From a virus, in the IMG/VR virus record IMGVR_UViG_3300043431_000379, positions 1 through 47,866 of that record: a stretch of DNA of 47,866 bases; one strand, given 5' to 3'. The translations under genes were made by a program, and so were the position numbers. Below are positions 1 to 31,122 of the stretch, in pieces (positions within the stretch are counted from its first letter, which is position 1; every line of letters starts with the position of its first letter). The notes beneath the pieces are model-generated. The model had not been told where the DNA came from and made no database searches. It saw only the letters and a program-made list of their open reading frames with translations.

Positions 1-1032
1 TCGGTCCGCCGCCTTCAGGTCCGGGGTGCGCGCTTCCAGCGTTTCCTTCTCGTTGTGGCCGAAGACCGATCCGGGCTTCGGGTTCGGCAGCGCCTTGACC
101 TTGGCCGCGATTTCGTCAGCCGTGGCCCCTTCCACTTTGTAGTCCCAGACGAACGAAGACAGCAGGTGCAGCCGTTCGACTTCCGCGAACAGGTACTGAT
201 CGTACAAGTCCAGCCAGTCCGCCAGCGGCAGCAGGGACGAACGCCCCCGGCTGCTGTTGGGCAGCTTGTTGATCCCCAAGTAGAACACTTCCCCTTCCAG
301 CATGCCGCTGACGGGGTTCTCGTGGATGATCCGCAGCCGCTGGCCGGCCGCCGTGCTGCCGGGTTCCGCCCGCAGCACCACGTATTCGGGCAGCAGGCTG
401 TTCATGGGGTTCAGGTCGATCGTAAGCACCATGCTGGGGTCGATGAACCCCAGCACCGGCCGCCCGGTCACGGGGTTCACTTCCACCGGCAGGATCAGTT
501 CCCCGTTCAGTTCCAGCGAATTGTGGAACTCAGGCAGCCGCGTGCGCAGCTGGTTGATCCGGTGGTTCCATGTCTGGTCGATCGCTTCCTGCACGCGGGG
601 ATCATCGGCCTGCACCGTGACGCCGCCGCCCAGAATCAGATCCGTGGAAAACGTGATCAGCCGCTTGGCGAAGGGGTTTTGTTCCCACAAATACCACGCA
701 ATTTCCAGCATCCGGTCTTGCTGGATCGGGGTCAGGTCACGCTTCCGGTTCTTGCTGCCGCTGCCCAGCCGCCTGTATTGGAAGTCGTCCGAGTCGATCG
801 ACAGGCCGGACGCCAGCGTCAGGGCTTCGCGCTTCTCTGCCGCCTGATGCAGGGCCACCGCGTCCGTGACCACCGCCCGCCGCTGCAGGGTCACTTCCTC
901 AGCCACCACCTGCCGGGTGGGCACGATCTGCAGGGGCAGGTCCATGACGGCATCGGACACCACAGGCACCGCCGCCGGCCCCGCCACACGAAGGCGCCCC
1001 AGTGCCGCCTGCAGTCTGTCGAACACGCCCAT
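1..1032 (-). CDS. Phage portal protein (C-terminus cut by window edge)
   Basis: Portal proteins form the ring at the capsid vertex through which DNA is packaged and to which the tail attaches. The ATG is at 1032-1030 and 344 codons are visible, open to the left edge. Visible portal-like features are an early segment reading LEIAWYLWEQNPFAKRL, which resembles the portal clip/stem entry region, followed by LGGGVTVQ. Later comes GEVFYLGINKLPNSSRGRS followed by LADWLDLYDQYLF, a typical portal central-domain signature. It lies 46 bp downstream of the large terminase, the standard terminase-portal order. The capsid morphogenesis genes that normally follow are outside the window. The family call is from recognised sequence style, not from a search. 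Confidence 0.85.
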   Translation of the reverse strand, partial: MGVFDRLQAALGRLRVAGPAAVPVVSDAVMDLPLQIVPTRQVVAEEVTLQRRAVVTDAVALHQAAEKREALTLASGLSIDSDDFQYRRLGSGSKNRKRDLTPIQQDRMLEIAWYLWEQNPFAKRLITFSTDLILGGGVTVQADDPRVQEAIDQTWNHRINQLRTRLPEFHNSLELNGELILPVEVNPVTGRPVLGFIDPSMVLTIDLNPMNSLLPEYVVLRAEPGSTAAGQRLRIIHENPVSGMLEGEVFYLGINKLPNSSRGRSSLLPLADWLDLYDQYLFAEVERLHLLSSFVWDYKVEGATADEIAAKVKALPNPKPGSVFGHNEKETLEARTPDLKAADR

Positions 1033-11870: not shown

Positions 11871-12077
11871 TTACGCGTGCGCCACGCTGACCGCCCGGGG
11901 GCCCTTGTCGCCCCGGCCGTCTTCGTGTTCGAACGTCACCCGGTCGCCAGCCTTCAGCGCCCCGAACGACTCACCCGGGGCCATCCCCGTCTTGTGGAAG
12001 AACCGATCGATCTGATCGTCTCCCTTGATGAACCCCCAGCCCTTCACCGCTTCCACCTTCTCCACCGTTCCGCCCAT
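11871..12077 (-). CDS. Cold-shock domain protein
   Basis: 68 residues. Single-stranded nucleic-acid chaperone. KGWGFIKGD is the RNP1 motif and RFFHKT is RNP2, followed by LKAGDRVTFEHEDGRGDKGP and the closing strand AVSV. I choose the ATG at 12077 because GGAGGGGG precedes it; the in-frame ATG at 12095 would place that ribosome-binding site inside the gene. Length matches CspA proteins. The preceding HNH frame overlaps it by 107 bp. Confidence 0.9.
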   Translation of the reverse strand: MGGTVEKVEAVKGWGFIKGDDQIDRFFHKTGMAPGESFGALKAGDRVTFEHEDGRGDKGPRAVSVAHA

Positions 12078-12561
12078 CGCCCGTTCCCCCTCCATCCAGC
12101 CACCGACAGGTGACGTTCCCCAGTTCGTCCGCGTTCGGCTTCTTGCCTTCCAGCCGCCCGGGCCAGTCGAAGATCAACCGGTTGCCGCCCACCCGCCCCT
12201 GCGCTGCATCGTGACACGCCCGGCAGACGCCTACCCGGTTCCAGCTTTCCCGGGGGCCACCGCGTCCCACCGGGATCAGTTCGTGCGGGTCTTGCACCCA
12301 GTGGGTGCAAACCATGGACACGCCGAAGGCAAAGCATACACCATTCTGGCGCTGGAACACCCGTTCCCTGTCCTTCCCCGCCACCTTCATCAGCGCCCGC
12401 CGCTTGCGTTCTCGCCGCTTGGCTTCGGGGCCCTTCACCCGCTTGCGCTTAGGCGCCGCCGCCTTGGCCAAGAACCCGCCGGCCGGACGCAGCGCCGTGC
12501 GCCGCCGCAGCCCCGCGCATGGTCGAAGGCTGGTTCGTCGCCGCAGTGGGGTGCGCTTCAC
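11971..12561 (-). CDS. HNH endonuclease family protein
   Basis: 196 residues. Basic N-terminus (MKRTPLRRRTSLRP) common in phage HNH proteins. The HNH core is DPHELIPVGRGGP with H93, then N108 and CRACH with C113, C116 and H117. An upstream partner cysteine pair is not complete (C76 and C85 are nearby). The last 36 residues overlap the cold-shock gene and are Gly/Asp rich, so the true functional end is probably near residue 150. It could nick DNA or assist recombination; it lies between replication loader and cold-shock genes. Confidence 0.75.
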   Translation of the reverse strand: MKRTPLRRRTSLRPCAGLRRRTALRPAGGFLAKAAAPKRKRVKGPEAKRRERKRRALMKVAGKDRERVFQRQNGVCFAFGVSMVCTHWVQDPHELIPVGRGGPRESWNRVGVCRACHDAAQGRVGGNRLIFDWPGRLEGKKPNADELGNVTCRWLDGGGTGDGRNGGEGGSGEGLGVHQGRRSDRSVLPQDGDGPG

Positions 12562-14135: not shown

Positions 14136-14396
14136 CTACTGCGCCGCCGGCAGTTCCTGCAGCTTGCGTTCCAGCCACGCCAGCGTGGTTTCGTGGGGCC
14201 GCTGCGTCACGCCCCGGGTGATCTTGCCCAGCGTGGACGTGGACACGCCCAGCAGCTTGGCGTACTTGTCCCATGACAGCTTCCGCTTCAGCCGATCGGC
14301 CTTCAGCCGCGCCGGCAGCGTTTCGAATTGCTGCCGCAGGTCGTCCGGCGCCGCGCCGGCTTCCGTGGTCTTCGGTTCGTTCTGTTCTGCGCTCAC
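14136..14396 (-). CDS. XRE-type helix-turn-helix regulator, 86 aa
   Basis: Starts at a GTG (14396) that overlaps the upstream stop as GTGA. After an acidic N-terminus the helix-turn-helix is about residues 39-62, KLSWDKYAKLLGVSTSTLGK, followed by a basic wing. Size and fold suit a Cro-like or early-gene regulator. It is the clearest transcription factor candidate in the window and so a candidate binder of the repeated early promoters, although nothing in the sequence proves that link. Confidence 0.75.
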   Translation of the reverse strand: MSAEQNEPKTTEAGAAPDDLRQQFETLPARLKADRLKRKLSWDKYAKLLGVSTSTLGKITRGVTQRPHETTLAWLERKLQELPAAQ

Positions 14397-19883: not shown

Positions 19884-20159
19884 TCAGATACGGCCGGCCG
19901 CCGGCCACGATTCCAGATACGCCGCATAGTCCGGCGGCAGCGGGGCTGCGTCCGCACGCGCCACCGCGTCTTTGGCTTCTTCGACCGTCAGGCGGACCTG
20001 TTCCCCGGGGCCACAGTCGAACGTCAGGATGGTCACTTCGTCGCCGCTGTAGCGGCTGTATTCGTATTCCCGGGACACCACCGTGGCGAAGAACGGGCCG
20101 TGCCCGTCCCCCAGATCCATCACCACCGCTTCGCCCGCGCCGAACGTTTCGCCCGCCAT
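19884..20159 (-). CDS. Small hypothetical protein, 91 aa
   Basis: ATG at 20159 sharing one base with the previous stop. The N-terminal part (FGAGEAVVMDLGDGHGPFFA followed by TVVSREYEYSRYSG) suggests a small beta barrel; the C-terminus is helical. It could be an SH3-like module, but no family is recognised. Confidence 0.6.
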   Translation of the reverse strand: MAGETFGAGEAVVMDLGDGHGPFFATVVSREYEYSRYSGDEVTILTFDCGPGEQVRLTVEEAKDAVARADAAPLPPDYAAYLESWPAAGRI

Positions 20160-20386
20160 CACCGCACCCCCACCAGCGCCATGCGAAGGCCGGCCAGTTC
20201 GTGCGCCGCCAGCGCCGAGTCCACCACGGTGCACCGGCCGGCATCCGCCACCCACTTGCCGCCGGACTTCCGGCCGTAGCTGTTGACGCCCTGCAGCACC
20301 GGATCGCCGTGCCGGCTGCCCACCACCACCGCCGGGGTGTGGTTCAGGTTCACCACGAAGGTGCCGATTTTCAGGGACTGCGCCAT
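20159..20386 (-). CDS. Small hypothetical protein, 75 aa, first gene of an operon
   Basis: Begins MAQSLKIGTFVVNLNHTPAV at 20386, with AAAGG eight bases upstream; in-frame ATGs at 20410 and 20461 are alternatives. Contains a short beta-rich fold (VVVGSRHGDPVLQGVNSYG). It is the first gene after the promoter at 20462-20518 and heads the run into the recombination and replication genes. Confidence 0.55.
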   Translation of the reverse strand: MAQSLKIGTFVVNLNHTPAVVVGSRHGDPVLQGVNSYGRKSGGKWVADAGRCTVVDSALAAHELAGLRMALVGVR

Positions 20387-20461: not shown

Positions 20462-20518
20462 AGACTACAGGAACAACCAAGCCGAGTCAAACACTTTCTT
20501 GCCGCCTGACTTACTTTC
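20462..20518 (-). promoter_or_regulatory. Early promoter P1 with paired GAAAGT half-sites
   Basis: Minus strand: distal GAAAGT at 20518-20513, proximal GAAAGT at 20498-20493 (20-bp period), -35 TTGACT at 20490-20485, 17-bp spacer, -10 TAGTCT at 20467-20462. It drives the operon beginning with the 75-residue gene and running toward RecT. Confidence 0.75.
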
Positions 20519-20524
20519 TATGCG

Positions 20525-20854
20525 TTAGCGTGCAAGTCCACGCAGGCGCCGGGGCACCGCCTGCTGCAGCAGGTGTTCGGCGCCGGTCAGCCGGGCTTCC
20601 AGTCGTTCCAGTTCCTGCCGCGTGGCTTCGATCGCCGCCCGGGCATCCACCACCACGCGCTGCGCTTCCATCACCGCCGCCGCCACCTGCGCGTCCCTGA
20701 AGGCCGCCCGGTGCCGATCGCAACAGAAGTCCTTGGTGACGTTCCGGCGCCGTGGGGGTTCCACCGGCCCGCCGCAGTGCCTGCACGGTTTCTGCTGCTG
20801 CGCCCCAGCCGCAGCTTCGGCAGCTGGCGCCATGTCCGCGCCGCCGGCCGTCAC
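20525..20854 (-). CDS. Zinc-ribbon plus coiled-coil protein, 109 aa
   Basis: GTG start at 20854 overlapping the previous stop as GTGA. A zinc ribbon is suggested by CRHCGG (C24, C27) and KDFCCDRHRAAF (C44/C45, H48), a pattern common in small phage proteins. The C-terminal half is a coiled coil (AAIEATRQELERLEARLTG). The stop is only seven bases before the distal half-site of promoter P1. Function unknown. Confidence 0.65.
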   Translation of the reverse strand: MTAGGADMAPAAEAAAGAQQQKPCRHCGGPVEPPRRRNVTKDFCCDRHRAAFRDAQVAAAVMEAQRVVVDARAAIEATRQELERLEARLTGAEHLLQQAVPRRLRGLAR

Positions 20855-21018
20855 AGGGCCGCCAGCGCCTTGTACGTGCCGCCAATGACCACCAGCGCGC
20901 CCAGCGCCGTGGCGCCCGCGTCACCCGTTGCCATCCCCGCCACCGCCAGCGCCGTGCCCACCACCGGAACCGCCGACCACAGCGCCACGTCCACCACCTG
21001 CCACAGGTTCGCCTTCAT
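20851..21018 (-). CDS. Small membrane protein, 55 aa
   Basis: ATG at 21018, ending in the GTGA shared with the next gene. Begins MKANLWQVVDVALWSAVPVV and contains two hydrophobic stretches separated by GDAGA, so probably two membrane helices. Below many gene-caller limits; kept because of the precise overlap and hydrophobic pattern. Function unknown. Confidence 0.6.
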   Translation of the reverse strand: MKANLWQVVDVALWSAVPVVGTALAVAGMATGDAGATALGALVVIGGTYKALAAL

Positions 21019-21178
21019 GATCCCCGCCCTTCTCTCGCCGCCGTAGTTCCTCGGCCGCTTCGTTCAGTAGTCGAAACAGGAAGGGGTATACCCGTGCCGC
21101 TGCTGCCAGTCTGGCATGCAGCGGCAGGGGCTCCCCGCCCACGCTGTCCAGCAGTGGAAGGTGGGCCACCGCCGTCAC
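20921..21178 (-). CDS. Small hypothetical protein, 85 aa, glycine-rich run-on tail
   Basis: GTG start at 21178 overlapping the collagen-like gene stop as GTGA. Residues 1-50 look helical (HARLAAAARVYPFLFRLLNE followed by AAEELRRREK). The last 33 residues are almost only Gly, Val and His and overlap the next gene by 98 bp, so they may not be functional. No family recognised. Confidence 0.45.
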   Translation of the reverse strand: MTAVAHLPLLDSVGGEPLPLHARLAAAARVYPFLFRLLNEAAEELRRREKGGDHEGEPVAGGGRGAVVGGSGGGHGAGGGGDGNG

Positions 21179-21738
21179 TTCATCAGCACGAATCCGGGCA
21201 TGGGCTGCCACGGCAGCGCCGTGTTCCAGCCTTCCGCCCACGCGTGGCCGCCGGTCCACCAGAACAGCGTGGACGTGCCCGGGATCCACGTCACCCCGTC
21301 GAAGTCCGATCCCGCCATGCCGTGCACCGTGAAGGGGTACGCCACCTGCGCCAGCCCCGTGGCCGGATCGACCAGCGCCGCCGCGCCGTGTCCGCCGACC
21401 TTGGCGTATACCAGCAGGTACGGCTTCCCCTGCAGCTGCAGGCCGGTGCGCACCGTGAAGGCCACGCCGCCCGTGACCAGATCGGACTTGGGCAGCTGCA
21501 CGGTCAGGTGCGTCAGGTCTTTGCCGTCCCGCCCGTCCTTGCCGTCCTTGCCGTCACGTCCGTCCTTGCCATCCCGTCCCGGGTCACCGGGGTCACCCTT
21601 CGGGCCCGGGTCACCCGGATCGCCCTTCTGGCCCTCACACGTTGCCGGGCAGGCCGTCTGCGTCCTGAACGTCTGCGCATTTGCCACCGCCGCCGCCAGC
21701 AGCACCACCAGCGCCACCACCATCGTTCTGATCTTCAT
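21175..21738 (-). CDS. Secreted collagen-like protein
   Basis: 187 residues from the ATG at 21738, with AGGGG upstream. A signal peptide (MKIRTMVVALVVLLAAAVAN, cleavage near AQ) is followed by C30 and C34 and 13 uninterrupted Gly-X-Y triplets at about 36-74, rich in GDP, GRD and GKD. A C-terminal domain of about 110 residues (ending WQPMPGFVLMK) may be a trimerising or binding head. Such repeats form collagen triple helices in phage fibres, but here the gene has an export signal and lies in the accessory region, suggesting a host-surface or secreted product. Confidence 0.75.
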   Translation of the reverse strand: MKIRTMVVALVVLLAAAVANAQTFRTQTACPATCEGQKGDPGDPGPKGDPGDPGRDGKDGRDGKDGKDGRDGKDLTHLTVQLPKSDLVTGGVAFTVRTGLQLQGKPYLLVYAKVGGHGAAALVDPATGLAQVAYPFTVHGMAGSDFDGVTWIPGTSTLFWWTGGHAWAEGWNTALPWQPMPGFVLMK

Positions 21739-21777
21739 TGGAATGTGTCCCCTGCAAAGGCCTTGGTAAAGGAAAGG

Positions 21778-21815
21778 AACCGGGCGGGGTGTAAGGCCGG
21801 CCACCCCGCCCGGTT
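21778..21815 (-). terminator. Rho-independent-type terminator after the DUF932 gene
   Basis: Perfect 14-bp inverted repeat, AACCGGGCGGGGTG at 21778-21791 and its complement at 21802-21815, with a 10-base loop. On the minus strand it is followed by CCTTTCCTTTACC, a pyrimidine-rich but imperfect T tract. It lies between the DUF932 stop and the collagen-like gene start. Confidence 0.7.
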
Positions 21816-21831
21816 CGTCACTCGCCGGCTG

Positions 21832-22953
21832 CTAGGCCGCCGCCGTGGCAATCTGCTGCCACGCCTGCCCGTCCAGCGCCAGCACCGCGCCGCCGGCCCG
21901 TTCCATGTCCGTGGCGCCTTCGTAATCCGGCCAGTCGTTCGCCGTCGCCGTGATGGCCGAAGACAGCCCCCACTTGGTGAGATCCCCACCTCGGGCCAGA
22001 TGGCCCAGAATGTTGTTCTGGCTGCTGTCCGGCAGCGCCAGCTTCTTAGTGGTCAGTTCCACCACGCGCTGCAGGTTCGGCGCCGTGATCGGTTCCTTGG
22101 CTGCGTCACGAATCTGCGCGATCGCCGCCTTGAACGTGTCGCCGTCGAAGGCCGCCTGCGTCACGTCCCGCACCTTCAGCCAGAAGGCGGCATCGTCCGC
22201 CTTGCGCGTGTCGTCCTTCAGAACGCCCCACGTCTGATCGGCTTCCCATGCTCGGCCTACGTGGTACTTCTTCATGGACGCCTGCGCCATGATCGCCATG
22301 TTGGTGCACCACGTCGTGAACACGCTGGGTTCCACCTTCAGCGTGCCGGCGCCCACGTCACTGTTGCTGATCGCGATCGCCGCCACCAGCCGGCCGGTGC
22401 GCCCCACCATGTGGTGCCCGTGCCCCCACGCCATGCCCTCGGGCAGTTCGTCCGACAGGCCGGGCAGGATCCCCTTCAAGTAGAACCGGGTTTCCGTCAG
22501 TTCGCAGGACATGACTTCCACGCCGTAGTTGATCAGCGTGGGCAGCACCGCGTTGGCCAGTTCGAAGTTGTCCAGCGGCCGGAACTTCGGGCTGAGGATC
22601 GCCCGGGCCTGCCCGTCCAGCGTGCGCACCATGCGCTGCGCGTCCGGTTCCGCGTGCAGCCATGTGTTGATGTTCTCCACCAACAGGTGGGGCTGTTCTT
22701 CGATCATCCGATCGTAGTAGCGCCGGGGCACGCCCAGATGGTCCGCCAGCTGCTGGTGCGCCAGCGACTTCAGGCCGACGTGCTGCCCGTTGAACCCGTC
22801 CAGCACCACCTGCTTGCCGGCCACGCCGGCTTCGTTCTTGGCGTCGATCACCTTGGCCACGATCTGGCCTTGCGGGGCCAGATAGTCCTTGCGCACCTGC
22901 GCCTGCCGTTCCAGTTCCGCCGCCAGCGCCTGAAGTGAACGTCCTGTCTTCAT
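21832..22953 (-). CDS. DUF932 family phage/plasmid protein
   Basis: 373 residues. The order of segments, HQQLADHLGVPRRYYDRM, HLLVENINTWL, FRPLDNFELANAVLPTL, SDVGAGTLKVEPSVFTTWC and then KKYHVGRAWEAD, is the DUF932 (phage/plasmid-like TIGR03299) pattern. These proteins are widespread on mobile elements and their role is unclear; proximity to recombination genes is common. It is the only gene between promoter P2 and a strong terminator, so it is a monocistronic unit. Confidence 0.88.
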   Translation of the reverse strand: MKTGRSLQALAAELERQAQVRKDYLAPQGQIVAKVIDAKNEAGVAGKQVVLDGFNGQHVGLKSLAHQQLADHLGVPRRYYDRMIEEQPHLLVENINTWLHAEPDAQRMVRTLDGQARAILSPKFRPLDNFELANAVLPTLINYGVEVMSCELTETRFYLKGILPGLSDELPEGMAWGHGHHMVGRTGRLVAAIAISNSDVGAGTLKVEPSVFTTWCTNMAIMAQASMKKYHVGRAWEADQTWGVLKDDTRKADDAAFWLKVRDVTQAAFDGDTFKAAIAQIRDAAKEPITAPNLQRVVELTTKKLALPDSSQNNILGHLARGGDLTKWGLSSAITATANDWPDYEGATDMERAGGAVLALDGQAWQQIATAAA

Positions 22954-23048
22954 CGTGTCCCCCGTTCCCGGTGTATCCAGCGGACTGCTGGCCTTGCCAC
23001 CGGCTTGGATGTGTCAGGCCGCCACCATGGCCGCCGACCATGCAAAGG

Positions 23049-23106
23049 ATCTTCGCATGGCCGGCCGCGCCACGTCAAGCACTTTCTAGCCTAGCCGCTC
23101 ACTTTC
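23049..23106 (-). promoter_or_regulatory. Early promoter P2 with paired GAAAGT half-sites
   Basis: Minus strand: GAAAGT at 23106-23101 and 23086-23081 (20-bp period), -35 TTGACG at 23078-23073, then an 18-bp spacer and a weak -10-like GAAGAT at 23054-23049. The distal half-site lies inside the last codons of the AAA+ gene. It serves the DUF932 gene. Confidence 0.7.
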
Positions 23107-24797
23107 GGTGCAGACTTGCGCACGGTAGGCTGGAACTGCCGCACGAACCGGATCGTATCCCGCGACACCCCGCCCGGGATCATGCGCGCCAGCTTCAGCA
23201 GGTTCTTCACGTCCCGCCCTGACAGCCCCGGGTTGTCCGCCACCAGATCCCCGATCGCGTCGTCCGACAGGTCCACCTTGTTCAGGTCCGCCAGCACGCG
23301 CCAGATCCGCGCCTGCTCACTGGCTGAAGGCGCCGAATACGACAGCCGGGCAATACACCGACTTGCGATCGCGTCGTCCACGTCGTCCGGCCGGTTGGTG
23401 GTCAAGAACAGGATGGTGTCCTGATATTCCAGCAGCCGCAGGAACACCCCCACGATCGCGTTCTGCTGCAGGTCGTTGCCGCGTTCGTGCACGTACACGT
23501 CAGCTTCGTCCAGCAGCATCACCGCCTTCCAGCGATTACCCCGCCGGAACACCCGCGCCAGTTCCGCTTCCAGCGTGTCGGGGTCCGTCCCCAGCTGACT
23601 GCACTGGACGCTATACAGGACTCGCCTTTCAGCTTCCGCGTACACTTCGGCCGTCAGCGTCTTGCCGGTGCCCGGGGGGCCACTCAGCAGCACCACCGCG
23701 CCGCCGCCCTTGCCCTTCACGATGTCCGCGTACCCGCCGCACTTCGTTTCGATCAGCAGCTTCACCAGCGCCTTGCGATCCGCGTCGATCACCAGACTGC
23801 TGCCAATTTCGTCATCGTAACGATACGGGGTCAGCTGATCGACGTGCACGCGCATGCGAAGATGCCGCGCCAGATCGAACACCACCAGCATGGGGTGCAC
23901 CGGGATCCGTTCGTTCACCACTTCGCCGGTGTTCGCCGTGTCGTCCCCGTCTTCGTCTTCGGACAGGTTGGCGCCGCCCGCGTCGAACGTGGCCCAGAAC
24001 CCCAGCTGGATCTGGCCTTCTTCGTTGTCCCGATCGCGTGCCTTTTCTGACTCGTAAAAGACATCCAGCACCACCTTGCTGGGGCCGGTTTCGCGCAGCA
24101 GCTGGTGCCGATCGCTGCGCCAGCGCCGCCAGCTGCGATCATCGTCTTCCGCGTCGTTGCCGTCCACGTCGTCCGTGCCGTACCCGGTGGCAAAGTACTG
24201 CGCGCCGATCGTGGCCCGCACTTCGTCCCAGCGCGCCACCGTGGCTTCGTGTTCCGCGATCCGGTCATCGGTGGCAGCCACGCAGCCGACCGCCCCCAGC
24301 GCCTGCGCGATCGTGCGCCCCCGGATCGTTTCGATCCCGAAGATGATCGCCGTTTGCGTCACCGCCCCCAGTTCCCTGTACGCCAGTTCCAGCGTGGTCT
24401 GGGGTGGGTGTTCGTTCCGTCCGCCGCCTTCCCTGAACTTCACGCCCACCACGTAGTACGGTTCCCAGTGCTCGCCCCGCTGCCGGAACACCCAGTGGGC
24501 CGCTGCGCCACTCAGATACTTGGCCAGCAGGGCCGCGAACGCTTCGACGCTGCGCGCCTTCAGGTTTCCCGCCGCGTTCCCCGGGGTCAGCCACGCGTCC
24601 ACGTCCCGCACAGCGTGGGCCACCTTGGGCCCGCCGGCCGCCAACAGCGCCCGCAAGGCCGCCACCGCCGATGGCTTCATGGTCTGCAGGTTGAACGTGT
24701 GCGTGTTCCGGTACATGAACGAATCGGGGCCGGCCAGTGCTTTCAGCTTGGCCTTGTCGATCAGGTCCGTCTGGTCAGCCGTCAGCCGGATCTTCAT
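23091..24797 (-). CDS. AAA+ ATPase (CDC48/FtsH-like module) with novel N-terminus
   Basis: 568 residues. The C-terminal AAA+ module has Walker A GPPGTGKT at 373-380, Walker B AVMLLDEAD with D430 and E431, sensor TTNRPDDVDDAI near 466, and a helical lid with GLSGRDVKNLLKLARM. Residues 1-360 are not recognised and include an acidic linker (DGNDAEDDD and SEDEDGDD). The fold suggests a protein-remodelling unfoldase, not a DNA helicase. It overlaps by ATGA a 93-residue helical protein that could be an adaptor. Confidence 0.85.
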   Translation of the reverse strand: MKIRLTADQTDLIDKAKLKALAGPDSFMYRNTHTFNLQTMKPSAVAALRALLAAGGPKVAHAVRDVDAWLTPGNAAGNLKARSVEAFAALLAKYLSGAAAHWVFRQRGEHWEPYYVVGVKFREGGGRNEHPPQTTLELAYRELGAVTQTAIIFGIETIRGRTIAQALGAVGCVAATDDRIAEHEATVARWDEVRATIGAQYFATGYGTDDVDGNDAEDDDRSWRRWRSDRHQLLRETGPSKVVLDVFYESEKARDRDNEEGQIQLGFWATFDAGGANLSEDEDGDDTANTGEVVNERIPVHPMLVVFDLARHLRMRVHVDQLTPYRYDDEIGSSLVIDADRKALVKLLIETKCGGYADIVKGKGGGAVVLLSGPPGTGKTLTAEVYAEAERRVLYSVQCSQLGTDPDTLEAELARVFRRGNRWKAVMLLDEADVYVHERGNDLQQNAIVGVFLRLLEYQDTILFLTTNRPDDVDDAIASRCIARLSYSAPSASEQARIWRVLADLNKVDLSDDAIGDLVADNPGLSGRDVKNLLKLARMIPGGVSRDTIRFVRQFQPTVRKSAPKVSG

Positions 24798-25075
24798 CGC
24801 CGGCCCCCGTCGTCTTCCCGGGCCTGCGTCTTGGCCAGCATGTATTCCAGCTTCGGGATCGCCCGTTCCACGTCATCGCTGGATGCCGCCGGCCGGCCCT
24901 GCACCACCAGCCGCAGCGCCTGCAGCACCGCGTGCAGTTCGTCGCTGGTCAGCATCACGCCGGGCTGCAGCGCCTGTTCGATCCGTTCGACGATGCCGCG
25001 CACGTCCCGATCGGTTTCCGCTTCCAGACGCGTCAGCACCTTGCGCGCCGCCTGTGGACTCATGGTGATCTTCAT
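24794..25075 (-). CDS. Small helical protein coupled to the AAA+ ATPase
   Basis: 93 residues; ATGA overlaps with both the ATPase downstream and the gene upstream. Helical throughout (AARKVLTRLEAETDRDVRGI, then LTSDELHAVLQALRLVVQG). The overlap at both ends implies equal expression with the ATPase. It may be a partner or adaptor; no family recognised. Confidence 0.65.
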   Translation of the reverse strand: MKITMSPQAARKVLTRLEAETDRDVRGIVERIEQALQPGVMLTSDELHAVLQALRLVVQGRPAASSDDVERAIPKLEYMLAKTQAREDDGGRR

Positions 25076-25275
25076 TTCGCCGCTGCCTTTCGCACCTTGG
25101 CCGCCACCGGCCCACTGATTGCCCTGCCGCGCTTCGACAGCGCCGCCTTCCGCACCAACCGGGACAGCAGCGCCTGATCGAAGTTCACTTCCACCAGCGT
25201 GTCCCGCTCGGCCACCACGCGCACGCCACCCCGACGCACGCCGATCACTTCGCCCGCGTTGATCTGATACACCAT
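25072..25275 (-). CDS. Small basic protein, 67 aa
   Basis: ATG at 25275 preferred over the GTG at 25281 because it gives a TGATG junction with the preceding stop. Sequence MVYQINAGEVIGVRRGGVRV, then a helix and a lysine-rich C-terminus (KVRKAAAK). Possibly nucleic-acid binding. No family recognised. Confidence 0.6.
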   Translation of the reverse strand: MVYQINAGEVIGVRRGGVRVVAERDTLVEVNFDQALLSRLVRKAALSKRGRAISGPVAAKVRKAAAK

Positions 25276-25973
25276 CACCACCGCCGCAGGGCCCCGTCCA
25301 GCCGGGCCCGTTCCATCTGCGCACTGCCCATGAAGGACGAACCGCCCCAGTAGCTTTCGAATTCCCGTTCAGCCGCCGCTTCGTTTTCGCGCTGTTCGTG
25401 TTCGTCCTTGCACTCGGTGCACCACGCTTCCCGGTCTTCGTCGATCAGCGTGGCCGGCCGCCGCTGGCAGTGATCGCACACGTCAGCATCGCAGCTGCCG
25501 CAGTCGCACACGTCATCCACCAGCGGGTGTTCCACCTTCGTGGGGGCCGCCATCACGCCCCCCCACGCCGGCAGTTCCCCGCCGATGATGGCTTCGCGTT
25601 CGGTCCGGCCGGTGGTCACGATCGTCCACGGGCCGATCTTGCCGAACCGCTGCCCCTTCGTCTGCATCCGGTCCGCGCCACAGAAGGCCACCAGCTGCAC
25701 CGCCACCCGATCGATGTAGCGCCACACCGCCGGCCGCGTCTTCGCCGTGTAGGTCAGCCGTACGCGCCGGCCGCCATCGTGCACCAGCGCCACTTCGTAC
25801 TTGGTGCTGCGCCCCTGCAGGGCCGTCAGCCGCTTGATCTTGGCGTCTTCGGCGCCGCCGTACCGCTTCCACCCGCAAAGGCTGCATGCGTCAGCCCCCA
25901 GCGCGAAGAAGTGCTGCGTGCCGCCGTCCTTGCACCGCGCCTGTTCGAAGACTTCCGCCGCCCCGCGCACCAT
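25275..25973 (-). CDS. Cysteine-rich zinc-binding-like protein, 232 aa
   Basis: Start ATG at 25973 in a TGATG junction. N-terminal CSLCGW (C30, C33), a central mixed domain (VRLTYTAKTRPAVWRYIDRV), then a cluster CDCGSCDADVCDHC and CTECKDEHEQRE, enough for one or two zinc sites, and an acidic helical tail. Domain family not recognised. Encoded immediately upstream of the AAA+ operon genes. Confidence 0.65.
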   Translation of the reverse strand: MVRGAAEVFEQARCKDGGTQHFFALGADACSLCGWKRYGGAEDAKIKRLTALQGRSTKYEVALVHDGGRRVRLTYTAKTRPAVWRYIDRVAVQLVAFCGADRMQTKGQRFGKIGPWTIVTTGRTEREAIIGGELPAWGGVMAAPTKVEHPLVDDVCDCGSCDADVCDHCQRRPATLIDEDREAWCTECKDEHEQRENEAAAEREFESYWGGSSFMGSAQMERARLDGALRRW

Positions 25974-26308
25974 CACTTGCCCCCCACCGTGACAATCACG
26001 TCAGTCAGGTCCACCACCGCTTTGCAGGACTCACACCACGGCAGCACCGCCGTGACATCCTTGGGCCACGCCGCGTCTTCTGGCATCGTCACCACCGTGC
26101 GCCTGACGTGCACCACCGCGCTGCCGCACCGGTGCGCCAGCCCGATCCGCTGGCTTTCCACCCAGTGGCTGCCGGCCGGGGCCGCTGGCGCCGGCTGAAC
26201 GCCAGCGATCAGGTTTGCCAGTTCCACCAAGTCGCCGGCCGTGCGCGTCTGGGCATCTTCGTACCCAAGACGCGCCAGCATGTCCCGCGCTGCCTGTTCC
26301 GCTGACAT
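25973..26308 (-). CDS. Hypothetical protein with cysteine pairs, 111 aa
   Basis: ATG at 26308 sharing a base with the previous stop. N-terminal helix MSAEQAARDMLARLGYED, then AHRCGSAVVHVRRTVV and LPWCESCK in the second half; the cysteines may coordinate zinc. No family recognised. Confidence 0.6.
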   Translation of the reverse strand: MSAEQAARDMLARLGYEDAQTRTAGDLVELANLIAGVQPAPAAPAGSHWVESQRIGLAHRCGSAVVHVRRTVVTMPEDAAWPKDVTAVLPWCESCKAVVDLTDVIVTVGGK

Positions 26309-26853
26309 CACTGCACCCCCTGCGCGATTTCCGCCCGGTCCACGCTGTCCATGCCGTTGGCGTCCACCGGCAGCTTGGGCCAGCCGGCCACCAGCCCCAT
26401 GCGTTCGCTGCAGTCCGGGCCGAACCCCGACACGATCGATTCCGGGACCGTCAGCAGCCGCCCGCAGCGCCCACAGCGCCCTTCGTGGTGCACCGCGTAG
26501 CCGGCCGGCAGCGCCTGCGCCTGCCACAGCTTCGCCATGGCCCAGCGGACCACCAACACCGCCGTGGTCTTGTCGGTGTAGCGGCTGGCCCGGGTCAGCT
26601 TCACTTCGCCGGTGGCCCAGCTGAGGATCCCCATGTAGGTGTAATCCGATTCGTTGTCCGCGCCGGTCAGCAGGGACACGAAGAACGTGGGGGTGGTGTA
26701 GCGGCTGCCTTCTTCCGGATCCTTGCGGGTCACCTTGAACGTGTAGCGTTCGCCCGTGGGGTTCGACACCGTGAAGATGGCCCGGCCGCCCAGCACGAAG
26801 TCCTTGGTGATCTGGTGGGTGCTGTTCGCCGCCGCCGTGTTCGTTTTCGTCAT
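26308..26853 (-). CDS. DUF6011 domain protein
   Basis: 181 residues from the ATG at 26853; GGGAG lies upstream, so the in-frame codon at 26862 is less likely. The C-terminal GRCGRCGRLLTVPESIVSGFG followed by PDCSERMG is the DUF6011 zinc-like motif common in actinophage and other phage proteins. The N-terminal part (YTFKVTRKDPEEGSRYTTPT, then SDYTYMGILSW) is strand rich. First gene of the operon driven by promoter P3. Confidence 0.75.
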   Translation of the reverse strand: MTKTNTAAANSTHQITKDFVLGGRAIFTVSNPTGERYTFKVTRKDPEEGSRYTTPTFFVSLLTGADNESDYTYMGILSWATGEVKLTRASRYTDKTTAVLVVRWAMAKLWQAQALPAGYAVHHEGRCGRCGRLLTVPESIVSGFGPDCSERMGLVAGWPKLPVDANGMDSVDRAEIAQGVQ

Positions 26854-26907
26854 CGCCGCCACTCCCGTCTGCTTGGCCGGAACGTGCCGGCCGGGTTGAT
26901 GAATGGA

Positions 26908-26965
26908 AGTCTACGCCCGGCGCCTGTTCCGGGTCAAGCACTTTCTGCCCGGGTCACTCACTTTC
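26908..26965 (-). promoter_or_regulatory. Early promoter P3 with paired GAAAGT half-sites
   Basis: Minus strand: GAAAGT at 26965-26960 and 26945-26940 (20-bp period), -35 TTGACC at 26937-26932, 18-bp spacer, -10 TAGACT at 26913-26908. The spacer carries an inverted repeat CCCGG-N8-CCGGG also present in P4. The distal half-site encodes the last residues of the upstream gene. Confidence 0.75.
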
Positions 26966-27245
26966 CGTGCAGGTCTGTGATCATGAAGGCGCCGGTGCCC
27001 GCGTGCAGGGACGCCAGCATGGCCGGGTGCACATAGATCACATTCCCGACCACCAAGGCCTTGCGGCTGGGCACCTTCGGGATCGTCGTGACGGACGCCA
27101 CCCAAGGCCGCCAGTCCACCGCCAGCAGTGGGAACCGACACACCACGCGGGGGATCAGTCGTTCACGCCACGATCGGTGGACCGTGACCGGGGGGCCGTC
27201 TTCGGTCAGCCACGCTGATGTGCGAAATTCGAACCCGCCGATCAT
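26958..27245 (-). CDS. Hypothetical protein, 95 aa
   Basis: ATG at 27245 in an ATGA overlap with the previous gene. Soluble, strand rich (VTVHRSWRERLIPRVVCRFP, then KALVVGNVIYVHPAML). Its last codons and stop form the distal half-site of promoter P3. No family recognised. Confidence 0.6.
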   Translation of the reverse strand: MIGGFEFRTSAWLTEDGPPVTVHRSWRERLIPRVVCRFPLLAVDWRPWVASVTTIPKVPSRKALVVGNVIYVHPAMLASLHAGTGAFMITDLHGK

Positions 27246-27439
27246 CGCTTGCCCCCTTTGCCGCTCACCTTTTTCGCCAGTTCACCGTACGCTGCCGCGC
27301 AGCTGTCGAATGCCGCTTGGGCCTGATCCATCAGCTGCTGGTCAGCCGCTGCCGCGCCGCGTTCGTGGCCCACGGCTACGCCCACCACGAACGCCCCCAG
27401 CATCGCCGGGAAGAACAGCAGGGCCAGCGCCCGGTTCAT
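27242..27439 (-). CDS. Small exported or membrane protein, 65 aa
   Basis: ATG at 27439 overlapping the previous stop as ATGA. Residues 3-23 (RALALLFFPAMLGAFVVGVA) form a membrane helix or signal anchor; the rest is a helical, alanine- and glutamine-rich tail with one Cys, ending in Lys and Gly. Function unknown. Confidence 0.6.
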   Translation of the reverse strand: MNRALALLFFPAMLGAFVVGVAVGHERGAAAADQQLMDQAQAAFDSCAAAYGELAKKVSGKGGKR

Positions 27440-27972
27440 CGCCCGCCCCCTTCCAGTACCCAGTACCCGTAAACGCACCGGCCGCCGCTCACCGACAGCA
27501 CCGGGTTGCCGAAGGTTCCATCCGGCAGCTGCACCGGGTTGCCCGCGTAGGTGGTCACCGGATCGCGCTGGGGATCGTGCGTATCCCGGATCACCCCGTC
27601 GATCACCGCCGTGTAATGCTTGCTGACCGCCACCACCAGCCGGCCGTGCGGTAGTTCCCCGGGGGCCAGATGCACCGTGCAGCCACTGCCGATCTGCATC
27701 GTGGCCACCCACCGGAACCCCAGCCGGCGCATGTAGTCCTTGAACCACTGCCGCGTGGTGTTGATGCCCCGGGCCGCCGTGGCGCCCTTGCGCTTGCCGT
27801 TGCGCCCCACTCGCTGCGCCCCGGTGCCGGCCGCCAGCGCCGCGTATACGTCCGCGTAGGGCTGGCCGCTGGCGATCGCCACCGACCGCGCCACGCAGTC
27901 CCCGGTGCGTCCCTTGAACCCCGCCGCCGCCCGGCCCCCATCGTCCACCATGAACGGAAGACGCGGCGCCAT
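27436..27972 (-). CDS. Conserved phage protein with papain-like peptidase pattern
   Basis: 178 residues from the ATG at 27972 in a TGATG junction. The motif FKGRTGDCVARSVAIASG (C26), the middle TRQWFKDYMRRLGFRWV, and VAVSKHYTAVIDGVIRDTHD (H119, D125 or D130) form a Cys-His-Asp arrangement, as in papain- or NlpC-like folds. This family recurs in phage genomes, usually as a hypothetical protein. A peptidase or isopeptidase role is an inference. Confidence 0.65.
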   Translation of the reverse strand: MAPRLPFMVDDGGRAAAGFKGRTGDCVARSVAIASGQPYADVYAALAAGTGAQRVGRNGKRKGATAARGINTTRQWFKDYMRRLGFRWVATMQIGSGCTVHLAPGELPHGRLVVAVSKHYTAVIDGVIRDTHDPQRDPVTTYAGNPVQLPDGTFGNPVLSVSGGRCVYGYWVLEGGGR

Positions 27973-28310
27973 CACAGCCCCGGCTTCCGCTCGGCCACAG
28001 CCAGCGCCGCCGCCAGCGTCAACACCGCTTCGTCCGTCAGCTTGCCCCACTCGGCATCACGCAGCGCCTTGCGCGCCTGCCTGATCGCCACTTCGCGCCG
28101 CACCGCGTCCGTGGGTTCTTCCAGCACCGGGCTGCTGTACGAATATCCCACAGCGTCCCCGTTCTTCCGCCAGTAGCGCGTGCCGTCCACGATGATCGTG
28201 GTTTTAGTGGTCCGTTCGACCTTCGCCAGCCGCACGCCGCTGTTGAAGTCGTACCGCACCGCCACCGGATCGCCGGCCTTCAGCCCTTCCGCCCACTCCC
28301 TGCGCGTCAT
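27972..28310 (-). CDS. Hypothetical protein, 112 aa
   Basis: ATG at 28310 in an ATGA overlap. N-terminal half is strand rich (AGDPVAVRYDFNSGVRLAKV, then TTIIVDGTRYWRKNG), resembling a small barrel. C-terminal half is helical (VRREVAIRQARKALRDAEWG). No family recognised. Confidence 0.6.
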   Translation of the reverse strand: MTRREWAEGLKAGDPVAVRYDFNSGVRLAKVERTTKTTIIVDGTRYWRKNGDAVGYSYSSPVLEEPTDAVRREVAIRQARKALRDAEWGKLTDEAVLTLAAALAVAERKPGL

Positions 28311-28870
28311 CGCCCACCGCCATTCAGCCACCGCTGCGCTTCCTGTTCCGCCGTTTCCGTGCTGCTGTTCCCGAACATGGTCACCCGCTTGGTGCCCACG
28401 TAGCCGTACCAGTTCCCCCAGACCGTGCACCGGATCCTGCGCTTCCCGCGCCCGAACGCCGCGCTGCCGCAGTCGTGCCCGGACCGGCAAGCGTTGCAGA
28501 CCTGCCGCCGGCAGCCGTAGCAGCGCCACAGGTCCGCCGACAGGTGCCGCGTGCCGCACGCGCTGCACGGGGTGATGGCCCAATCCGGCGCCGCTTCCGC
28601 CGGTTGCTGCGCCACCCACTGGTCCAGCTGTTCGAACGTCAGCCCGGTCACTTCGTTCTGGCACTGCCACACCAGACGATTGCCCAGTGCATCGCACGCG
28701 ATCGGCGCCACGCGCACCAGCGTGATCCGGCCGTCATCCTGCAGCCACGCCTGCAGCGCGTACGGCAGCGCCTTGGTGGCGCCCTGCCCCCATTCGCTGG
28801 CGTACACCTGCACGCCGGGCAGGCTGTGAATGTTGGTGGTGCTGACGTGGTAACCGGTGGGGATCTTCAT
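28307..28870 (-). CDS. Zinc-finger-like protein, 187 aa, first gene after P4
   Basis: ATG at 28870 with GAAAGGA upstream; the in-frame ATG at 28948 lies upstream of the promoter and is rejected. Residues 1-90 are mixed. Then cysteines C102, C105, C117, C120, C125, C128 and C134 (CSACG, CYGCRRQVCNAC, HDC) suggest a double zinc site of RING- or FYVE-like spacing. The tail is basic. Function unknown. Confidence 0.65.
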   Translation of the reverse strand: MKIPTGYHVSTTNIHSLPGVQVYASEWGQGATKALPYALQAWLQDDGRITLVRVAPIACDALGNRLVWQCQNEVTGLTFEQLDQWVAQQPAEAAPDWAITPCSACGTRHLSADLWRCYGCRRQVCNACRSGHDCGSAAFGRGKRRIRCTVWGNWYGYVGTKRVTMFGNSSTETAEQEAQRWLNGGGR

Positions 28871-28914
28871 CGTGTGGTCCTTTCGTGGCGGGGGCATGCC
28901 CGCGAACAAGAACG

Positions 28915-28972
28915 ATCCTACGCCCGGGCCGCTGTCCGGGTCAAGCACTTTCTGTCCGCCCTACGCACTTTC
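28915..28972 (-). promoter_or_regulatory. Early promoter P4 with paired GAAAGT half-sites
   Basis: Minus strand: GAAAGT at 28972-28967 and 28952-28947 (20-bp period), -35 TTGACC at 28944-28939, 18-bp spacer containing CCCGG-N8-CCGGG, -10 TAGGAT at 28920-28915. Confidence 0.75.
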
Positions 28973-29251
28973 AGTGCAAGGCCGGGAAACCGTTTCCAGC
29001 TTACGGCTGCACCGCATGCAGGGCTGCGTGGCTGCCAGTCGTGACCGGACCAGCCGATCCCACCCGGGCCCCGGCGCCGCCGGCTGGCACTCCGCGCACA
29101 GATGCCCCCGGCCCTTGACCGTGCCGGCCGCCGGCTGGCACCAGCCCACGAAGTCCGGCAGGGGTTCCGCCGGTAGGGCCAGCCCCATCAGGTAGCCCGT
29201 GCGCGCCACCGCGTCCAGCTGCTGCTGCAGTTCCTTGCCGTCCATCGCCAT
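28961..29251 (-). CDS. Small zinc-ribbon-like protein, 96 aa
   Basis: ATG at 29251 overlapping the previous 32-codon gene by one base. Cysteines C38, C52, C55, C78 and C81 (LCAEC and PCMRC) suggest a zinc-binding site. N-terminal helix KELQQQLDAVARTGYLMG. The last codons form the distal half-site of promoter P4. Function unknown. Confidence 0.6.
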   Translation of the reverse strand: MAMDGKELQQQLDAVARTGYLMGLALPAEPLPDFVGWCQPAAGTVKGRGHLCAECQPAAPGPGWDRLVRSRLAATQPCMRCSRKLETVSRPCTESA

Positions 29252-29349
29252 CACCACCACCCCATGGCCATGCCGATCAGGCTGGCCAGCGCCACCAGCG
29301 CCGCCGACAGACCGACCATGGCCCGCTGGACGCGCTGCTGGACCGTCAC
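29251..29349 (-). CDS. Membrane microprotein, 32 aa
   Basis: GTG start at 29349, GTGA overlap with the gene before and TGATG overlap with the gene after. One helix, AMVGLSAALVALASLIGMAM, after a basic start. Below standard gene-caller limits; the exact overlaps on both sides support it. Confidence 0.55.
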   Translation of the reverse strand: MTVQQRVQRAMVGLSAALVALASLIGMAMGWW

Positions 29350-29480
29350 CGGCCCACCTGCCCGATCGACTCCACCACCGTCTGCAGCCGGCTGGCCACC
29401 GCCAGCCCGATGAACGCCGCCACGCCCAGCGCCGCCGCTGCCGCCACGATGATCCCCGCACGGTTCCACGTTGTCACCAT
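29346..29480 (-). CDS. Membrane microprotein, 44 aa
   Basis: ATG at 29480, ending in GTGA shared with the next microprotein. One membrane helix, AGIIVAAAAALGVAAFIGLA, then an amphipathic SRLQTVVESIGQVG tail. Paired single-helix microproteins could form a complex. Function unknown. Confidence 0.55.
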   Translation of the reverse strand: MVTTWNRAGIIVAAAAALGVAAFIGLAVASRLQTVVESIGQVGR

Positions 29481-29493
29481 GATGCCCCCTGCC

Positions 29494-29775
29494 CTACTTC
29501 GACGCCGCCGCGCCGGCCACCGCTTCCAACATCCGGTCTTCGCATTCTTCGCAGTCCGGTGCGCACTCGGCCAGCCCCAGCGCCATGCACTCGGCCAGCG
29601 CCTTGCGCGCTTCCGGCAACGTCAGGCCGCGCCGGCCCAGTCCTTCAGACAGCGAATGCGAACCCCTGCCCGTCCAGTGATACCCCATCGGGGCATCCAC
29701 CACCAGTAGCCCGTCCAGATGATCCACCGTCGCGCCGCACGCTTCCACCCGCGCCATGAACGTGTCCCGCCGCAT
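29494..29775 (-). CDS. Small hypothetical protein, 93 aa, first gene after P5
   Basis: ATG at 29775 preferred over 29790 because GGAGG sits eight bases before it. Reads MRRDTFMARVEACGATVDHL then a helix (PEARKALAECMALGLAECAP) with CAPDCEEC (C71, C75, C78). Possibly metal binding. No family recognised. Confidence 0.6.
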   Translation of the reverse strand: MRRDTFMARVEACGATVDHLDGLLVVDAPMGYHWTGRGSHSLSEGLGRRGLTLPEARKALAECMALGLAECAPDCEECEDRMLEAVAGAAASK

Positions 29776-29817
29776 GATCGCATCCTCCATTCGTTGCCAG
29801 TTCGTGCTGGCCAGCCG

Positions 29818-29856
29818 ATCCTAACACCGCCGCCCTGTGCCCTGTCAAGTCCTTTC
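29818..29856 (-). promoter_or_regulatory. Early promoter P5, degenerate member
   Basis: Minus strand: one altered half-site GAAAGG at 29856-29851, -35 TTGACA at 29848-29843 overlapping the upstream stop, a 19-bp spacer and -10 TAGGAT at 29823-29818. A distal half-site is not recognisable, so it may be weaker or differently regulated. Confidence 0.55.
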
Positions 29857-30123
29857 GGGCCGCCCTGCGCCGCGTGCGCAGTCGTGGCATATGTGCACCG
29901 TGTCGCCGCCGATCGTCTGGGGCACGGCATCCAGTGCCGGCCGCTGGCACGCTTCGCACGTCACCAGCGTTTGCCCGGTCACATGGCAGATGGTCCGCCC
30001 GTCGTCCATGTCTTCCTGACAGCGTGCGCTGTGCGTGCCGCAGGCCGGGCAGTGCTTGCCCACGAAGGTGTGCACCGGCAGCCGCAGCGCCGGCAGGCTA
30101 GAACGGGATGATCTGATCGCCAT
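29845..30123 (-). CDS. Zinc-ribbon protein, 92 aa
   Basis: Starts at the ATG at 30123, inside the end of the preceding small gene. Cysteines C25, C28, C35, C46, C56, C59, C79 and C82 (CPACG, CEACQ, CHDC) give room for two zinc sites. The start is uncertain, as the ribosome-binding site is weak and a downstream GTG is possible. Function unknown. Confidence 0.6.
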   Translation of the reverse strand: MAIRSSRSSLPALRLPVHTFVGKHCPACGTHSARCQEDMDDGRTICHVTGQTLVTCEACQRPALDAVPQTIGGDTVHICHDCARGAGRPERT

Positions 30124-30250
30124 ACAGGATCCGGGTCTGGTGCGTCTTCGCGCAGTGACGCGCCCACCGCTGGGCATTCCGCTTGCGCGCAAGTAACCGG
30201 CTGACGAACGGGCCGCCGGCCAGCTGGATTTCCACCGCGTAGAACGACAT
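30098..30250 (-). CDS. Small hypothetical protein, 50 aa
   Basis: ATG at 30250 with GGAAGGA upstream, a strong signal. Reads MSFYAVEIQLAGGPFVSRLL then a basic helix (ARKRNAQRWARHCAKTHQTR) and ends at TAG. Below usual length limits; kept for its good start and different frame from shadows. Function unknown. Confidence 0.6.
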   Translation of the reverse strand: MSFYAVEIQLAGGPFVSRLLARKRNAQRWARHCAKTHQTRILYGDQIIPF

Positions 30251-30285
30251 CGTGCGTTCCTTCCGTGAGGATGGGCCGCCGGGGC

Positions 30286-30309
30286 CGGCCGGGGCTCACC
30301 CCCCGGCCG
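30286..30309 (-). terminator. GC-rich hairpin between two small genes
   Basis: Perfect 9-bp inverted repeat CGGCCGGGG at 30286-30294 with 30301-30309 and a six-base loop; further partial pairing extends outward. No T tract follows on the minus strand, so it may be a processing or attenuation hairpin instead of a terminator. Confidence 0.4.
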
Positions 30310-30323
30310 CCGGCCGCCGCGTT

Positions 30324-30641
30324 TCAGATGGTGGCGCCGGTGGCCACGTCCACGATCGCCACCGTCCGGTAAAGACGCCCCAGACGCCCGGTGGCCACTT
30401 TGCGCGCCAGCTGCAGGGAACCGGACCAGCCCAGCACGCCAGCCACCGCGCCGTCCGTGATCTGCTGTTCGACCTTTTCGGCAGTCCACCAGCTGTCACC
30501 GGTGGCTGCCAGTGCGCGCAGCTTCGCCTGATATGCGTCTGAGTAGTCCTGCACCACCACGACGTGGGTGTAAGTGCGCGCCGTGGTCCGGGTGAAGGTG
30601 CCGTATTCGGTGGTGACGGTCAGGGTCTGCTTCTTAGCCAT
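30324..30641 (-). CDS. Small hypothetical protein, 105 aa, first gene after P6
   Basis: ATG at 30641 with GGAG eight bases upstream; the in-frame codon at 30680 overlaps the promoter and is rejected. Begins MAKKQTLTVTTEYGTFTRTT, strand rich, then a helix containing WWTAEKVEQQITDGAV. A GlySerLeu-type region follows (VLGWSGSLQLARKVATGR). No family recognised. First gene of the rightmost accessory operon. Confidence 0.65.
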   Translation of the reverse strand: MAKKQTLTVTTEYGTFTRTTARTYTHVVVVQDYSDAYQAKLRALAATGDSWWTAEKVEQQITDGAVAGVLGWSGSLQLARKVATGRLGRLYRTVAIVDVATGATI

Positions 30642-30679
30642 TGGGTTGTCTCCGTGGTCAGTTCGTGCTGACAAGGACA

Positions 30680-30736
30680 ATCCTACAGGACACGCGATCG
30701 CGTGTCAAACACTTTCTTGCCTTCTCGCTTACTTTC
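30680..30736 (-). promoter_or_regulatory. Early promoter P6 with paired GAAAGT half-sites
   Basis: Minus strand: GAAAGT at 30736-30731 and 30716-30711 (20-bp period), -35 TTGACA at 30708-30703, 17-bp spacer, -10 TAGGAT at 30685-30680. This is the closest to consensus of the six and carries a long palindrome in its spacer. Confidence 0.8.
30690..30705. repeat. 16-bp palindrome between -35 and -10 of P6
   Basis: ACACGCGATCGCGTGT is a perfect 16-bp palindrome lying between the promoter elements, ending inside the -35. This is a typical place for a repressor operator. None of the other promoters has the same palindrome. Confidence 0.65.
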
Positions 30737-30834: not shown

Positions 30835-31122
30835 TTACGCCCCGGAGTTCCCAGCCCCCGGTGCGAACGGTGCCGGGGCGTATTTGCTGAGAAGTTCGGC
30901 CGCCCGCGTCTGCAGCGCGTCCGAATCCTTGGCCAGCAGATCGATCAGCTGGGCATCTTCCAGCCAGCCGCCCCGGTCATCGGGCTGGCCGGGGTTCGAT
31001 TCCCGCCACGCTGCCCGCATTCCCTTGTACAGCGCCACCAGCTGGATGATGCCGCCGATCGCCAGATTCGACTGGCTGATCACCCCCAGCACCAGCCCCG
31101 CCTTGCCGCTCACCTGTTCCAT
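30835..31122 (-). CDS. Small membrane-associated protein, 95 aa
   Basis: ATG at 31122. Residues 8-31 (AGLVLGVISQSNLAIGGIIQ and following) form a hydrophobic helix; the rest is acidic then helical (AQLIDLLAKDSDALQTRAAE). It lies last in the lysis-like block, downstream of the lipoprotein gene, and could be a lysis accessory protein. No family recognised. Confidence 0.65.
   Translation of the reverse strand: MEQVSGKAGLVLGVISQSNLAIGGIIQLVALYKGMRAAWRESNPGQPDDRGGWLEDAQLIDLLAKDSDALQTRAAELLSKYAPAPFAPGAGNSGA

Follow-up and report, generated by a model that had tools for sequence, protein, structure and literature searches.

Five GAAAGT-Pair Promoters of a GC-Rich Phage Are Consistent with Helically Phased Subsites for the Host RNA Polymerase

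The virus record IMGVR_UViG_3300043431_000379, analyzed here as a whole (hereafter the window; 47,866 bases, linear), belongs to an uncultivated GC-rich phage and contains five minus-strand promoters in which two copies of the hexamer GAAAGT, separated by 14 nt, precede a TTGAC -35 box. These five sites are a real, non-random promoter family. In the reading that we favor, and consider reasonably probable, they would be early promoters for the host housekeeping sigma factor (sigma70) with helically phased subsites, similar to those of upstream promoter (UP) elements, for the C-terminal domain of the polymerase alpha subunit (alpha-CTD), and would have been multiplied and homogenized within each phage.

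The Window Contains Five Exact Members of the Family

A pattern scan of the window retrieved exactly five matches to GAAAGT-N14-GAAAGT, every one on the minus strand (20493–20518, 23081–23106, 26940–26965, 28947–28972, and 30711–30736), whereas there were none in 100 dinucleotide shuffles of the same sequence. Extending the pattern with NN-TTGAC returned the same five sites at 0 mismatches and no further match within 3 mismatches. In the whole 47.9-kb record, the minus strand has 12 copies of the hexamer, 10 of which belong to the pairs, and the plus strand has three. A -10-like hexamer is found 17–18 bp past the -35 box in all five sites; the combination of TTGAC and TAnnnT at this distance is present in four of them, with GAAGAT in the fifth. 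The first-pass annotation of this DNA had described these five minus-strand sites, locating them correctly by the ends of their -10 hexamers, and they are as follows:

Promoter 1, 30680–30736, minus strand: GAAAGT-N14-GAAAGT-GT-TTGACA-N17-TAGGAT, ahead of open reading frame (ORF) 30324–30641.
Promoter 2, 28915–28972, minus strand: GAAAGT-N14-GAAAGT-GC-TTGACC-N18-TAGGAT, ahead of ORF 28307–28870.
Promoter 3, 26908–26965, minus strand: GAAAGT-N14-GAAAGT-GC-TTGACC-N18-TAGACT, ahead of the gene for a DUF6011 protein (26308–26853).
Promoter 4, 23049–23106, minus strand: GAAAGT-N14-GAAAGT-GC-TTGACG-N18-GAAGAT (weak -10), ahead of the gene for a phrog_1362 protein (21832–22953).
Promoter 5, 20462–20518, minus strand: GAAAGT-N14-GAAAGT-GT-TTGACT-N17-TAGTCT, ahead of ORF 20159–20386.

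All six letters of GAAAGT are kept in 10/10 half-sites; a G and a GG are conserved between the half-sites, and TGCAC lies upstream in four of the five promoters. Identity of the 42-bp upstream region within the set is 0.76, and the spacer and flank letters define two sub-lineages, one with promoters 1 and 5 (30704 and 20486) and another with promoters 2, 3, and 4 (28940, 26933, and 23074).

The same annotation had counted six members. The sixth is a degenerate relative:

29818–29856, minus strand: GAAAGGAC-TTGACA-N19-TAGGAT, with a degenerate proximal half and the distal GAAAGT missing.

This place (29848, with its -10 ending at 29818) keeps the -35 and -10 boxes, but it scores 5.6 bits on a position-weight matrix built from the five pair sites, which themselves score 53–60 bits; its letters thus mark it as a promoter-like relative that stands outside the pair family. 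The leader predicted for it (CCAGCACGAACTGG) is similar to that of the 30704 promoter, and part of the leader is common to both. This common part, together with the two sub-lineages, would be expected if the five promoters were recent duplicates of a single cassette in which only the proximal element matters and the upstream repeat, devoid of function, merely hitch-hikes. We consider this highly improbable: both GAAAGT copies are exact while the N14 between them and the leaders have drifted, and, as described below, other phages also space the two copies in helical phase.

A Syntenic Relative Keeps the Operon Heads with a Different Promoter Set

A 70.7-kb record, G001 (L142–L146), is syntenic with the window, with about 40 window proteins matched, mostly in order, at 31–72% identity. 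It contains five promoters at operon heads that match those of the window:

L146:4342, same place as promoter 1, after the homolog of window 30835–31122.
L146:5543, counterpart of promoter 2, ahead of a gene for a product similar to that of window 28307–28870.
L146:7880, same place as promoter 3, ahead of the DUF6011 gene.
L143:2018, same gene as promoter 4, before the phrog_1362 gene.
L143:4820, between the phrog_1362 gene and the RecT-like gene.

By eye, the first product after L146:5543 and that of window 28307–28870 have a NIHxLPG stretch in common; we do not claim strict one-to-one orthology for all the G001 promoters, because the first-to-third gene order is partly shuffled.

The 20-bp GAAAGT pair is absent from all five G001 promoters. 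Four of them correspond, with small changes, to AAAAAAAGTAAAAAAAGTGCTTGCGT-N16-TATACTAGGAACAT, and the fifth to GAAAGTGAACAAAAGTAAAAAAAGGACTTGACG-N17-TATCTTAGGAACAT. All five have A-tracts in the same register directly upstream of the -35 box (four read AAAGTnCTTG there) and a second time at a greater distance. With the -35 hexamer taken to start at -36, the upstream elements are AAAAAAAGTAAAAAAAGTGCTTGC, with A-tracts at about -47 to -41 and -56 to -50, or GAAAGTGAACAAAAGTAAAAAAAGGACTTGAC; elements of the type AAAAAAAGTAAAAAAAGTGCTTG place their A-tracts at the textbook positions of UP elements, and those of the four similar promoters are, by position, both canonical UP subsites. Identity of the 42-bp upstream region is 0.68 within these four promoters and only 0.33–0.52 between matching pairs from the window and G001; because it is high within each phage and low between matching pairs, each phage has its own homogenized promoter set.

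The first-pass annotation had proposed that the pairs are read by an activator, with one candidate inside the window:

14136–14396, minus strand: XRE/HTH_3 protein of 86 residues.

We found nothing linking this protein to the pair sites. G001 contains a syntenic homolog (49% identity over 61 residues); since the two phages have kept the XRE protein but have entirely different sites, this protein is no obvious candidate for reading them.

GAAAGT Copies Are Spaced by Whole Helical Turns in Many Other Phages

We scanned the IMG/VR collection (2.9 million viral contigs) and found at least 120 loci with a single GAAAGTGCTTGAC followed by a -10 box. Most of the matches listed are convincing sigma70 promoters, drawn from a very diverse range of phages, and the AAA upstream of the hexamer peaks at about -11 and at -20 to -22, that is, about one and two turns away. 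The pair itself is not a general trait of these promoters, with a near-GAAAGT at -20 in only 3 of 98, and is one of several phased options.

A scan with GAAAGT-N{3..33}-GAAAGT-NN-TTGAC-N18-TAnnnT retrieved 68 sites, or 44 once near-copies were removed. Spacings of one turn account for 15 of the 44 (three of 9 bp, nine of 10 bp, and three of 11 bp), those of two turns for 13 (three of 19 bp, eight of 20 bp, and two of 21 bp), and those of three turns for five (four of 29 bp and one of 30 bp), with zero sites at 16–18, 22, 27–28, or 31–34 bp. In-phase spacings (9–11, 19–21, and 29–31 bp) thus amount to 33/44 vs. 29% expected; beyond 12 bp they are 18/28 vs. 22% expected (binomial p about 2e-6), with phase windows that derive from the helical repeat but were set after the histogram was seen. 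For spacings beyond 12 bp, a Rayleigh test gave only p about 0.05 at period 10, and in the same scan the shuffled control hexamer GATAGA was in phase in 2/18 sites.

About nine other phages have the 20-bp pair together with -35 and -10 boxes. One of them, L006 (66% GC, TAGGAT as -10), is the pair-bearing phage whose protein-level relatedness to the window phage was checked, and it showed no window-protein match at E<1e-4. Searching the exact pattern in 84,980 bacterial and archaeal genomes yielded eight matches in unrelated phyla, close to chance by our own estimate (a few). Several matches from a relaxed pair scan were conserved peroxiredoxin-like coding sequence and were dropped as promoters. 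Eleven contigs classed as viral (L203, L206–L209, L211, L212, L217, L219, L223, and L224) contain, by eye, a conserved coding stretch (VIVYYPKDFTFVCPTEI) as in bacterial peroxiredoxins, and possibly represent host contamination of the viral collection. A narrow literature search found no paper on the GAAAGT pair.

These comparisons bear on whether a dedicated regulator (the 86-residue XRE protein, or else an activator from the phage or its host with an AraC-like geometry) binds the direct repeats two turns apart, recruits polymerase at the -35 box and switches the five operons together. Direct repeats about 20 bp apart and abutting the -35 box are the geometry of AraC/XylS-type activator sites, and the pair layout matches it; additionally, both half-sites and the 20-bp spacing are strictly conserved, and the promoter sets are homogeneous within a phage and differ between relatives, with an identity of 0.43 from one set to the other, as with a co-evolving reader. 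Conversely, there is no AraC-family protein among the ORFs scanned, whose only helix-turn-helix protein is encoded 6 kb away from the closest pair, and in 4/5 promoters the -35 and -10 boxes are adequate for use without an activator. The same pair, in the same helical register of GAAAGT that recurs across many other phages, exists in phages without evident relation, such as L006. The first-pass annotation had reasoned that relatives keeping the genes without the paired half-sites would speak against an activator, and this is largely what G001 displays, with the genes, the promoters and the XRE homolog kept and 5/5 promoters lacking the pair. We therefore regard a dedicated activator as unlikely, and the role proposed for the XRE protein is not supported.

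The sites could also be operators, with a phage repressor covering the GAAAGTGCTTGAC box (13 bp, asymmetric, overlapping the -35) and the second copy upstream, as in cluster A mycobacteriophages, whose operators and stoperators (PMC9283540) are likewise short asymmetric sites oriented with transcription and overlapping the promoter. If the repeat unit is taken to be GAAAGTGnkTGAC, its proximal copy includes the -35 box, and all the sites are oriented along transcription. Moreover, in the relative L136, promoters L136:3218 and L136:9906 (also L137:4418) have a different common element, with AAA near -62, GTGTCAnC and GTGCAG, and the two L136 promoters have in common an inverted repeat, TGTCAAC...GTTGACA, spanning the -35. 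Nevertheless, the window sites are paired and occur at promoters only, unlike stoperators, with no copies elsewhere in the window within 3 mismatches; no integrase, partition protein, typical immunity repressor or repressor homolog was found among the proteins scanned (Pfam/PHROGs, most of the larger ORFs, in a record about 20 kb short of G001); and promoters with a single GAAAGTGCTTGAC are widespread among phages. Repression through these sites is, in our opinion, improbable.

Docking of the Polymerase Alpha Subunit Would Account for the Layout

A reader that is common to many phages, and acts at -42 and at whole turns further up, is most simply RNA polymerase itself. Under the favored reading, host sigma70 would drive the early, non-structural operons of the phage from the pair promoters, with GAAAGT as a docking subsite for the alpha-CTD. 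The proximal copy, with its AAA at about -43 to -41 directly upstream of TTGAC, would occupy the proximal UP subsite, whereas a second alpha-CTD could bind the distal copy, with its AAA at -63 to -61, two turns up and on the same helix face; the alpha-CTD sits on a flexible linker, and a site at -62 should therefore be reachable. With host RNA polymerase as the only protein needed, the pair would make the promoters stronger, and a GC-rich phage entering the cell would thereby be able to capture polymerase; homogenization of the set probably occurred by copying of promoter cassettes plus selection. Alpha-CTD binding, early timing and promoter strength are what we infer from these sequences.

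The proximal register is exact, with AAA at -43 to -41 in 5/5 window promoters (-35 hexamer starting at -36), and the region equivalent to -46 to -38 is AAGAAAGTG, CAGAAAGTG, or TAGAAAGTG. The proximal alpha-CTD site is given as AAAAAARNR at -46 to -38 in PMC2801614, which cites Estrem 1999, and mutation of the adenines at -41, -42, and -43 of this subsite sharply lowers activity (PMC4390567). The A/T-rich distal subsite (-57 to -47) is absent from the window promoters and present in those of G001 (about -56 to -50), and we therefore class the window pair as a UP-like variant, short of a full UP element of the canonical type.

Several points weigh against this reading. The distal copy is at -62, vs. 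-57 to -47 for the canonical distal subsite, and the sequence around -52 is rich in G; conservation of the six letters, of the G and GG, and of TGCAC extends beyond the A-tracts, whereas more drift would be expected in an alpha-CTD site; and the inverted repeat over the -35 in L136 looks like an operator. The strict conservation of the half-sites, and of the GG and TGCAC around them, leaves room for a specific regulator, although recent copying of promoter cassettes is a cheaper explanation. A less probable reading, which we put forward only tentatively, is that GAAAGT is a widely used, so far undescribed modular element of phage promoters, more specific than a generic A-tract, which sits at -42, recurs at whole helical turns (-52, -62, and -72), and is read either by the alpha-CTD as a strength code or by a conserved host factor; the two-turn version would here define a homogenized regulon of five promoters.

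The window promoters resemble the sigma70 UP element (rrnB P1; Estrem et al. consensus) in the A-tract directly upstream of the -35, in exact register, and in having more A-tracts upstream on that face of the helix, with G001 having both canonical subsites; they differ in that a short AAA is contained in a strictly kept GAAAGT hexamer, and in that the second subsite is at -62, and not about -52, with G+C-rich DNA in between. The early promoters of phage T4, in which UP elements are present (PMC2988021), are likewise multiple strong host-sigma70 promoters that capture host polymerase, strength being inferred for the window; here there is no extended -10 (TGn), there is a repeated GAAAGT pair, and the phage is GC-rich and unclassified. 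Similarly, the cluster O mycobacteriophage Corndog (PMC4351075) has several SigA-like promoters per genome, a genome-specific repeated motif and some predicted leaderless mRNAs, although its repeats are 17-bp palindromes found genome-wide, whereas those of the window are direct repeats fixed to the -35.

Genomic Setting and Predicted Leaders

The pair promoters are confined to the block of small non-structural genes between positions 20 and 31 kb, where they head operons, and there is no pair site among the structural genes of the window. ORF 20159–20386, downstream of promoter 5, leads into RecT-like, exonuclease, SbcC-like and helicase loader/replication genes. This agrees with the earlier description of a dispersed family of promoter-like sites heading mostly unknown genes. 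No near relative of this phage was found in the phage database. About 20 kb of G001, between the homologs of window genes 1079–2785 and 47223–47738, are missing from the window, which marks it as a partial genome, with the terminase and head genes presumably within the missing segment. The leftward non-structural region includes genes for an MT-A70 adenine methyltransferase, DUF1643 and DUF5131 proteins and a cold-shock-domain protein (7350–7937, 4717–5493, 9827–10825, and 11871–12095).

Short hairpins are located at or near the predicted transcript starts (window 30673–30656, 29811–29796, 28910–28890, and 26900–26882), and two start-proximal hairpins are compensatory variants (GTCAGcacgaaCTGAC and GCCAGcacgaaCTGGC). 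We do not claim a 5'-terminal hairpin as a defining part of the family, the z-scores being modest (mean about -1), and terminators ahead of the promoters were not in excess with respect to shuffled sequence. In G001, the arrangement TATACT-AGGAAC-ATG at L146:4381 and L143:4862 puts the predicted transcription start at the A of the ATG. The mRNAs from these two promoters, whose ORFs have 45 and 75 codons, are possibly leaderless.

Implications

The promoter family is ordinary in kind, and unusual in its two-turn GAAAGT layout and its homogenization within the phage. A postulated phage activator is replaced by a simpler, testable model, the docking of the polymerase alpha-CTD. The most useful outcome is the helical phasing of GAAAGT over many phages, which provides evidence, from the sequences of tens of phages, for upstream promoter subsites set at whole helical turns. 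Likewise, phages of one lineage that keep their operon heads and re-write all their promoters together offer a clean case for the question of how promoter sets are homogenized.

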